A stretch of DNA of 64,000 bases from Candidatus Polarisedimenticolaceae bacterium (GTDB lineage: Bacteria; Acidobacteriota; Polarisedimenticolia; Polarisedimenticolales; DASRJG01): the NCBI GenBank assembly GCA_036275915.1, contig DASUCV010000004.1, forward strand, positions 62,001 to 126,000, given 5' to 3'. A program made the position numbers and the translations under genes. Of the stretch, positions 5,263-7,601 are shown in pieces. Below the pieces are notes generated by a model. The model searched no databases and had not been told where the DNA came from. It saw only the letters and a list, made by a program, of their open reading frames with translations. The first letter of the stretch is position 1, and the number at the start of each line of letters is the position of its first letter.

Positions 5263-5343
5263 TCCAACACCGATCGCGGGGAGTTTCAGTGTGCCACGCC
5301 CCCGGCCGGACGACCATGTAAAAGCTACGGACCAGCCCCAGAA

Positions 5344-5454
5344 TTAGCGGAGTTTCGACATGATCCTGAGAAGGAGGGAAAGGAAGAGGGATGCCGTCCC
5401 CAACGCCGCCCCAACGCTCAGTACGATCGACCCCACGAGGAGCAGAAGCTGCAT
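5344..5454 (-). CDS. 36-residue single-pass membrane peptide
   Basis: A short gene with ATG at 5452-5454 and TAA at 5344-5346. An AAGGAG ribosome binding site lies 7 bases before the ATG, better than those of most long genes here. The product starts MQLLLLVGSIVLS, stays hydrophobic for about 29 residues and ends RIMSKLR, so it looks like one membrane helix with a short basic cytoplasmic tail. It lies between a sigma-54-type promoter and the NtrC-family regulator gene (82 bp downstream, same strand). Function is unknown; it could be a target or a feedback partner of the two-component system. Confidence 0.6.
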   Translation of the reverse strand: MQLLLLVGSIVLSVGAALGTASLFLSLLLRIMSKLR

Positions 5455-5654
5455 GTTTCGACTCCTTGGGAACCGGAACCCGTCGGCCCCGGCCCGAGTG
5501 GTCGTCTCCTGACAGGTCTCAGGCCGGGCTCAACATAGTTGCAATACAGTTGCCATTCAAGCTCGATAATTTTCATGCTTTATCGCGACTCGTCGGCGGA
5601 GACTTAGCAGGGGTATATTCCCGCCTTCATGCCCCCCACTCAGGTTCAGAAGCG
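5455..5654. other. divergent intergenic region
   Basis: This 200-bp gap separates the minus-strand membrane-peptide/regulator/kinase genes from the plus-strand cytochrome gene. It holds the sigma-54 promoter at 5540-5555 and an A+T-rich stretch at 5530-5620 that stands out from its surroundings. I found no convincing sigma-70 promoter for the cytochrome gene, although TATATT at about 5614 could be a -10 box. Confidence 0.5.
5540..5555 (-). promoter_or_regulatory. sigma-54 (-24/-12) promoter
   Basis: Read on the minus strand this is TGGCAACTGTATTGCA, with GG and GC separated by exactly 10 bases and both TGGCA and TTGCA cores present. It differs from the RpoN consensus (TGGCACG-N4-TTGCA) at two bases. 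The predicted start near 5529 lies 75 bp before the 36-residue membrane peptide and 267 bp before the NtrC-type regulator. Confidence 0.65.
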
Positions 5655-7601
5655 GTGATCCGGTCACTTTTTCGTTTCGCGATGGCCGGAGCCTCCGCCG
5701 CCGTCTTGTGTCTTTCATGCTCGGGGCCCAGCCACGAATCGGCACCCGTGGCGGCGGTCGGAGCCGGTGGGGCGGGCGGGCGCTTCGTCGGATCCGAGGC
5801 GTGTCGCTCGTGCCACGCCAGCGAGTACGCCGCGTGGTCGGGGAGCCGCCATCGCAGCGCGATGCGCATCCCCGCACCGGGCGAGAAGATCGCCCTCGCA
5901 TCCGCTCCCTCCTCGCCGTTCCGGTTGGATTCGGACGGCGCGGTCGAAGGGCCCGGTGAGAACGGCGGGGCCGTCCGTGGCCGCGTCGCCTTCCTGCTCG
6001 GCGGCAAGCACCGCGAAGACGTCGTCGTTCGACTCGAAGACGGGCGCCTTCAGGTGTTCCCCTGGTCGTGGGACGCCGATCGATCGGCGGCGTTCCGTCC
6101 GCTCGAGGCACTCGCCGGCGGCAGCTCTCCGCCGGCCGACGCCATCGACTTCTGGACCCGCGCGGGCCGGAGCGCCCCGCTCGCGTGTTACGGCTGTCAT
6201 GCGACCGGGCAGACGCTGACCGCCGCGGGGAAGACGCCGGGAGGCATGACGATCCCAGCCACACGCTGGATCGAGCCCGGGGTCGGTTGCGAAGGGTGTC
6301 ACGGACCGGGAGGCCCCCACCTCGAAGCGGCTCGCGCGAAGGCGGCGACCGCGGGGACGATGAAACTCGCGCGCGCGGACGGGAGCGTCGACGCCTGCGC
6401 GGCCTGTCACGGCCTTCGCGACGTGCTGCCCTCGCCATTCGGGGACGAGCCGGCGCATCGTTATGGCGCGCCGCTCTACGAAGCGGCCGATCCCTTGCTG
6501 ACGGTACCGTCGAACTTCGAGTTCCACGAGCCGTTCTTCGGCGATCTCCGGCCGGCGACCTACCAGCAGGAAGCGGTCGCCTTCGCCCAGTCCGGATGCG
6601 CGCGCCGCGGCGGCTTGACCTGCTCGGGATGTCATGACGTGCACTCGGGAACGCTGCGGCCCGACGCCGGCGATTCCCTGTGCGCCAAGTGCCACAAGGC
6701 GATCGCCGACGCAGGCCGCGGCCACACGCTTCATGCGCCCGGCTCCCCGGGCGGGCGCTGCATCGACTGTCACATGGCGGCGATCGTCCGCGGTCCGGCA
6801 TCGTCTTCCGCGCGCGACCACTCGATGGCGCCGCCGACCGCTTCTGCCGGACATATCCCCGCCGCATGCGCATCGTGCCACGCGAGCGGCGGCAAGCTCG
6901 ACGCGATCGCGGCGGCGTGGAAGAAGATGCCCGACGGCAAGGCCGCGGCGTGGCGACGGGGAATCGGCGATGCCGTCGACGGCGCCGAGACCGACGCCGG
7001 CACCGACGCTCTCCTCCGTGCCGTGTCCGATGACGGCAACGGTTGGTTCGTGCGCTGGTCTGCGCTCCGGAGAATCGTCACCGCTTCGACGCCGCGCCGC
7101 ACCGAGCCGATGGCCGAGGTACTGAAGCGAACCCTCTCCGACCCGAATCCCGCGCTCCGGCGCGAAGCGGCACGCGCGCTCGGCCGATTCGGCCGCCCGC
7201 AGGAGTTCGAGGCGCTCGTCAAGGCGACGAACGATCCCGACCCGTGGACCGCGCTCGCCGCGGCGGTCGCGCTCGGGAGGCTCGGAGCACCCGATACCGG
7301 CACGCGCTTCCCCGAAGTCCTCAAGCGGCCCGATCTCGTCCTCGATGCGCGGGCCCAGTTCGCCTACGGGCACGCCCTCCTTCTCGCGCGCAATTGGGTG
7401 CGGGCGGAATCGGTTCTCGAGCGCGCGCTCGAAATGAACCCGATGATGGTCGGCGCGATCAGCGATCTCGGCCTCAGCCTGCGCGCTCAGGGGAAACGCG
7501 ACCAGGCCGACGCCGCCTGGAAGACCGCCCTCGAGATCAACCCGCGCTTCGAGTCGGCCCGGCAGAACCTCGAGAAGGGCTCGTCCGCCGCCTCCGAGTA
7601 G
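5655..7601 (+). CDS. octaheme c-type cytochrome with HEAT and TPR repeats
   Basis: 648 residues from GTG 5655; ATG 5682 is an alternative. A signal sequence ends in a CLSCSG stretch that may be a lipobox. Eight CxxCH heme-binding motifs follow: CRSCH, CYGCH, CEGCH, CAACH, CSGCH, CAKCH, CIDCH and CASCH. After residue ~430 the protein changes to HEAT-like repeats (NPALRREAARALGRFG) and then TPR helices (LERALEMNPMMVGAISDLG). It should be an exported electron-transfer protein whose repeats could dock a partner. Similar multiheme-TPR proteins exist in Acidobacteria-like genomes, but their redox partner is not defined. Its stop directly abuts that of the convergent PHP gene. Confidence 0.88.
   Translation: MIRSLFRFAMAGASAAVLCLSCSGPSHESAPVAAVGAGGAGGRFVGSEACRSCHASEYAAWSGSRHRSAMRIPAPGEKIALASAPSSPFRLDSDGAVEGPGENGGAVRGRVAFLLGGKHREDVVVRLEDGRLQVFPWSWDADRSAAFRPLEALAGGSSPPADAIDFWTRAGRSAPLACYGCHATGQTLTAAGKTPGGMTIPATRWIEPGVGCEGCHGPGGPHLEAARAKAATAGTMKLARADGSVDACAACHGLRDVLPSPFGDEPAHRYGAPLYEAADPLLTVPSNFEFHEPFFGDLRPATYQQEAVAFAQSGCARRGGLTCSGCHDVHSGTLRPDAGDSLCAKCHKAIADAGRGHTLHAPGSPGGRCIDCHMAAIVRGPASSSARDHSMAPPTASAGHIPAACASCHASGGKLDAIAAAWKKMPDGKAAAWRRGIGDAVDGAETDAGTDALLRAVSDDGNGWFVRWSALRRIVTASTPRRTEPMAEVLKRTLSDPNPALRREAARALGRFGRPQEFEALVKATNDPDPWTALAAAVALGRLGAPDTGTRFPEVLKRPDLVLDARAQFAYGHALLLARNWVRAESVLERALEMNPMMVGAISDLGLSLRAQGKRDQADAAWKTALEINPRFESARQNLEKGSSAASE

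Follow-up and report, generated by a model that had tools for sequence, protein, structure and literature searches.

A conserved single-helix membrane peptide gene ahead of an NtrC-type activator/kinase pair, with a putative shared sigma-70/sigma-54 promoter, in Polarisedimenticolales

In this work, we have analysed a stretch of 64,000 nucleotides from an acidobacterial genome (the window) and compared one of its loci with that of related genomes. Our results make it probable that a composite promoter drives the gene of a small membrane peptide, an NtrC-type activator and a histidine kinase as one unit, with a switch between sigma-70 and sigma-54 (Table 1). Sequence comparison establishes that the peptide is conserved, that both promoter types are conserved, that one is nested in the other, and that the sigma-54 box was lost jointly with the activator. 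The parts are of known kinds; what is new, within the searches made, is the peptide family, the way in which the parts are arranged, and the loss of this arrangement together with the activator.

Table 1. Features of the locus, in window coordinates
Feature	Position	Strand	Remarks
Single-helix membrane peptide, 36 aa, MQLLLLVGSIVLSVGAALGTASLFLSLLLRIMSKLR	5454..5344	minus	profile matches, codon divergence; new family
Ribosome-binding site AAGGAG	5467-5462	minus	7 nt before ATG (5454)
-24/-12 (sigma-54) box TGGCAACTGTATTGCA	5555-5540	minus	GG-N10-GC; predicted +1 at about 5529
Sigma-70-type promoter TTGAAT-17-TATGTT	5532..5560	minus	encloses the sigma-54 box almost wholly in its spacer; predicted +1 at about 5525
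yTTACnnGG element, candidate operator of the regulator	5314..5321	minus	conserved after the peptide stop
NtrC/AtoC-type sigma-54 activator	5262-3856	minus	receiver, AAA+ with GAFTGA, Fis-type HTH
Membrane histidine kinase	3859-1982	minus	two TM helices, weak Cache-like extracytoplasmic region, PAS, HisKA, HATPase

The preliminary description of this DNA had proposed a one-helix reading frame of 36 residues behind an AAGGAG site, and this frame proved to be conserved: a profile of the peptide (final model) matches nine of the ten genomes of the order, plus G010, with E-values of about 1e-14 to 1e-19, and the relatives' genes carry purine-rich sites at the position of the ribosome-binding site. 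Elsewhere, the profile of the first model found nothing at E<=0.001 among 396 sampled genomes of the phylum. The length is 36 residues in all ten genomes, M1, Q2, S13, A17 and A21 are invariant, and none of the ten peptides has an acidic residue, the N terminus being uncharged and the C terminus basic. AlphaFold2 models the peptide as one helix spanning residues 3-35 (pLDDT 93). The peptide genes of G000 and G001 differ in 24 codons and 7 residues, the corresponding figures for G006 and G008 being 14 and 2, and the divergence falls chiefly on third codon positions; since codon changes far outnumber residue changes, the frame is under purifying selection. Searches of Pfam, NCBIfam, PHROGs and the PDB gave no convincing match, and as far as database searches go the peptide is a new family. 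A cis-acting leader peptide or RNA element was considered and rejected, as it is the amino acids that are conserved and Rfam gave one sub-threshold match at chance level. Small residues on one face of a helix, here at positions 13, 17 and 21, are a typical helix-packing pattern, and the S13-xxx-A17-xxx-A21 face suggests packing against a candidate membrane partner.

Behind the peptide gene lie, as had been claimed, an NtrC-type activator with an intact GAFTGA motif (together with DLVMPG and GESGTGKE) and a membrane kinase, whose GTG start codon overlaps the TGA of the regulator. Orthologues of the regulator are 66-78% identical in G001, G002, G004-G006 and G008, all of the same order (in G008 the match is partial, one contig carrying the peptide and the start of the regulator and a second contig the remainder), and 56% identical in G010, which belongs to the class and falls outside the order; G003, G007 and G009 lack the regulator. 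The kinase co-occurs with the regulator across the genomes, and wherever the regulator was found, in the order and in G010, the 36-residue frame lies directly 5' of it. The best NCBIfam matches are AtoC/NtrC for the activator (418 against 714 and 558.6 bits) and AtoS/ZraS for the kinase (192 against 646); these scores are well below the equivalog cut-offs, that of NtrC or AtoC proper not being reached, and the pair is therefore an unnamed member of a broad class. Proteins related to the activator that were retrieved from genome contigs were distant and uninformative. The envelope signal that the preliminary description proposed for the kinase is unproven; behind it stand two transmembrane helices and a sub-threshold sCache_3_2 match, and a model of the sensor domain (pLDDT 61), too poor for a fold search, gave no fold match at E<=0.001.

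Two genomes, G003 and G009, keep the peptide gene in synteny, in the order purC, GH3 hydrolase, peptidase-like gene, RpoH-like sigma factor and peptide, and lack the regulator and the kinase both at the syntenic locus and genome-wide (kinase search at E<=1e-60). They bear directly on the possibility that the peptide modulates the adjacent kinase by feedback, in the way that MgrB acts on PhoQ. The shared transcription unit in seven genomes of the order plus G010, the single helix encoded beside a kinase with two transmembrane helices, and the precedent of MgrB, a membrane peptide known to exert feedback on a kinase (PMC2789325), all speak for such a role, but in G003 and G009 the peptide and its invariant face are retained with the kinase gone, and we consider it unlikely. 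As the S13/A17/A21 face is unchanged in these two genomes, the packing partner of the peptide is probably other than the adjacent kinase; and since the peptide outlasts the loss of kinase and activator, its core job would lie outside their loop. Thus, the regulatory loop suggested initially stands in part: the activator can be matched to the box through their joint loss (see below), but a peptide that survives without the pair is not a mere output or partner of the loop.

The surroundings of the operon vary. In the window, a divergent multihaem cytochrome gene (5655-7601, plus strand), with C554/c3-like haem motifs and HEAT and TPR repeats, has a common intergenic region of about 200 nt with the peptide gene; a similar cytochrome occupies the equivalent place in G001, and the rest of the order has the RpoH-like sigma factor upstream. 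A link between the peptide and this sigma factor was rejected, since the factor is common in the class where the peptide is missing, and in the window's own genome it lies on another contig. A plasmid search found nothing.

The sigma-54 box lies where it had been placed, and its minus-strand sequence, GG-N10-GC spacing, both cores and predicted start at 5529 were all confirmed. It is near-consensus, agreeing with TGGCAC-G-N4-TTGCA at 10 of 12 positions, begins 101 nt before the peptide ATG, and occurs in this exact form once in the 4.5-Mb genome; when the 200 nt 5' of the peptide frame were dinucleotide-shuffled 2000 times, an equally good box arose only twice. The single box is by itself no evidence, because TGGCN7TTGCA has 12 matches in the genome against 40 for the reversed control. 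The genome scan for further boxes that had been suggested did return matches, yet fewer than its control, and the genome-wide count was dropped as a proof. The case for the box comes from conservation across genomes and not from single-site statistics. Alignment of the relatives on the box, also suggested beforehand, has TGG and TTGC kept 94-101 nt 5' of the ATG in 7/7 genomes, these being the genomes of the order in which the activator/kinase pair follows the peptide (G010 is outside the order), with flanks and neighbouring spacer columns that are poorly conserved or drifting; in each of the seven, no more than 6 of 2000 shuffles score as high. The RpoN gene is encoded in all 11 genomes and is intact in the window's own. 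What upstream motif searches in the relatives recovered was mostly the tail of the adjacent sigma-factor gene; no clear conserved activator site was found 5' of the box. The roughly threefold rarity of TGGCN7TTGCA relative to its control could mean that spurious sites are avoided, or could be no more than a word bias. Some of its other matches in the window's own genome (L069, L071, L072) lie just 5' of genes whose products appear to begin with signal peptides or lipoprotein signals, and a sigma-54 envelope regulon may have further members among these candidates.

Around the box, the elements TTG-17-TAnnnT are present in nine of the ten peptide genomes, with a spacer of 17 nt every time, a match that arises in about 1-5% of shuffles per genome. 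The TTG ends two bases before TGG, and the TA follows TTGC by three bases, in six of the seven box genomes; the composite TTGNNTGGN8TTGCNNNTA matches six genomes exactly once each, in every case at the peptide promoter, and the reversed pattern has none in the 11 whole genomes searched. The flanking pair also occurs in G003, G009 and G010, where no box is aligned inside it. The hexamers of the sigma-70 type match the consensus at just 6-8 of 12 positions, and a stricter promoter scan did not list them. The two predicted starts nearly coincide (5529 for sigma-54, 5525 for the sigma-70-type promoter). Since the flanks are kept without the activator and the composite occurs once per genome, the site with its nested box appears to be a promoter that sigma-70 and sigma-54 share in a mutually exclusive way. 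An RpoH-type promoter was rejected: CTTGAW resembles its -35 element, but the -10 element does not fit the RpoH consensus, and the 17-nt spacing suits sigma-70.

A pure sigma-54 promoter, as put forward in the preliminary description, would make the TTG and TA flanks incidental, or mere aids to DNA melting. It would explain G002, in which the sigma-54 box is kept and the sigma-70-type hexamers are lost. It would not explain why TTG-17-TAnnnT, at exactly 17 nt, recurs in nine of ten genomes, including two that have neither box nor activator, why TTG-17-TAnnTT precedes the peptide in all three genomes of the candidate second clade described below, or why both flanks accompany just one of the 12 genome-wide box matches, that of the peptide promoter. 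We judge it improbable; of the original claim, the conserved box is upheld, but its nesting in a conserved sigma-70-type promoter had not been foreseen.

The same comparison connects the box with the activator. G003 and G009 retain TTGTTG-17-TATGCT and have no box above chance, their best GG-N10-GC being reached by 986 and 1345 of 2000 shuffles. In a five-gene tree they are sisters (support 98.8/98) inside the pair-bearing group, which overruled a single-gene tree that grouped G009 with G005; the joint loss of box and pair is hence counted once, not twice, and probably happened in a single event. This joint loss implies, at the level of sequence, that the adjacent activator is the one that serves the box. 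In G010, which has the pair and the peptide, the only box candidate is weak and differs in position (9/12; reached by 57 of 2000 shuffles). The distribution also weighs on a pure sigma-70 promoter, with GG and GC in its spacer by chance or descent: the sigma-70-type pair is indeed more widely distributed than the box, and the genome as a whole shows no enrichment of the box by itself, but TGG and TTGC persist in 7/7 genomes while adjacent spacer columns drift, loss of the box coincides exactly with loss of the activator, and G002 keeps the box without sigma-70 hexamers, so that this explanation seems to us very improbable.

No good terminator was found after the peptide gene. With the activator and kinase in the same unit, positive autoregulation of their operon is likely, as judged from gene order only. 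A yTTACnnGG element is found 11 nt past the peptide stop in six of seven genomes tested; in the window the distance is 22 nt, longer by roughly one helical turn. The information content of the element exceeds that of 40 of 40 shuffled sets at widths of 8, 12 and 16. It is absent from the post-peptide position in genomes without an adjacent regulator. In G001, G005 and G006 the element forms one half of a palindrome, of which TGTAAAACTTACA is an example. Activator sites usually lie upstream, which makes this downstream position unusual; the element is nevertheless the best candidate for the operator of the regulator.

We propose that the sigma-70-type promoter, which is weak, would give basal transcription, and that sigma-54 polymerase could bind the same DNA through the box in the spacer, with an almost identical start point. 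Since the two polymerases could not occupy the promoter together, unactivated sigma-54 polymerase should repress, holding the gene down by occupancy. On a signal sensed by the kinase, the phosphorylated activator would open the sigma-54 complex, and more peptide and more activator and kinase would be made by positive autoregulation. The peptide would be a single helix, N-out/C-in, packing through S13/A17/A21 on a membrane partner other than the kinase, or on itself. The promoter activities, the occlusion, the autoregulation, the signal and the partner are inferred. That the peptide is instead a hydrophobic, membrane-damaging toxin of the type I toxin-antitoxin style, to which its size, its hydrophobicity and a leader of about 70-75 nt from predicted start to ATG would be suited, is very improbable for a single-copy, syntenic and strongly constrained peptide without an amphipathic charge pattern; no antisense RNA family was found with Rfam.

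What was the origin of this arrangement? Three genomes of genus g22, of another family (L102, L103, L104), encode relatives of 35-37 residues, MDLLLLLLALVVSIALSLGLGAGLLSLLLRLIQTHSS and its kin, each alone weak (E of about 0.02). All three genes have a purine-rich ribosome-binding site and a TTG-17-TAnnTT promoter, and none of the three is preceded by a sigma-54 box. These orphan peptides lie in a different neighbourhood, with an apparent RND-type transporter upstream. They are a candidate second clade of the family; if homologous, the peptide and its sigma-70-type promoter would predate the link to sigma-54. Tentatively, and with rather less confidence than in the composite promoter, we suggest an ancestral, class-wide family of single-helix peptides of 35-37 residues with a housekeeping promoter, which a sigma-54 two-component system may have captured through a box arising in the spacer, giving a one-site switch, basal with sigma-70 and activated with sigma-54, whose reversal may be visible in G003 and G009.

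This study adds a conserved, unannotated membrane micropeptide from a poorly studied lineage, and its invariant packing face gives a direct handle on the peptide's partner. Close relatives with and without the activator form a natural experiment: from one to another the sigma-54 element appears or disappears and the sigma-70-type element stays, so that single-site competition between sigma factors, and the move of a housekeeping promoter to sigma-54 control, become testable.

Through competition for binding, sigma-54 polymerase that is not activated represses overlapping sigma-70 promoters in E. coli (Schaefer et al. 2015, PMC4551910), and gonococcal pilE appears, in PMC6755734, as a cited case of overlapping sigma-54/sigma-70 sites. 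The likeness lies in the overlap of the two kinds of site; the polymerase competition seen there is here predicted from sequence. Unlike those sites, the window box sits in a 17-nt spacer with nearly identical predicted starts, is kept across three families beside the activator presumed to serve it, and disappears when that activator does. The regulator (receiver, AAA+ with GAFTGA, Fis HTH) and the kinase (PAS, HisKA, HATPase) resemble NtrBC, AtoSC and ZraSR, from which the pair differs in falling below the equivalog cut-offs. MgrB is controlled by the two-component system on which it feeds back (PMC2789325). The window peptide shares with MgrB and MgtR the form of a small single-helix membrane protein, with no sequence relation found, but whereas an MgrB-like peptide would occur solely with its kinase, G003 and G009 keep the peptide without one, and where the pair is present the peptide gene heads the operon.
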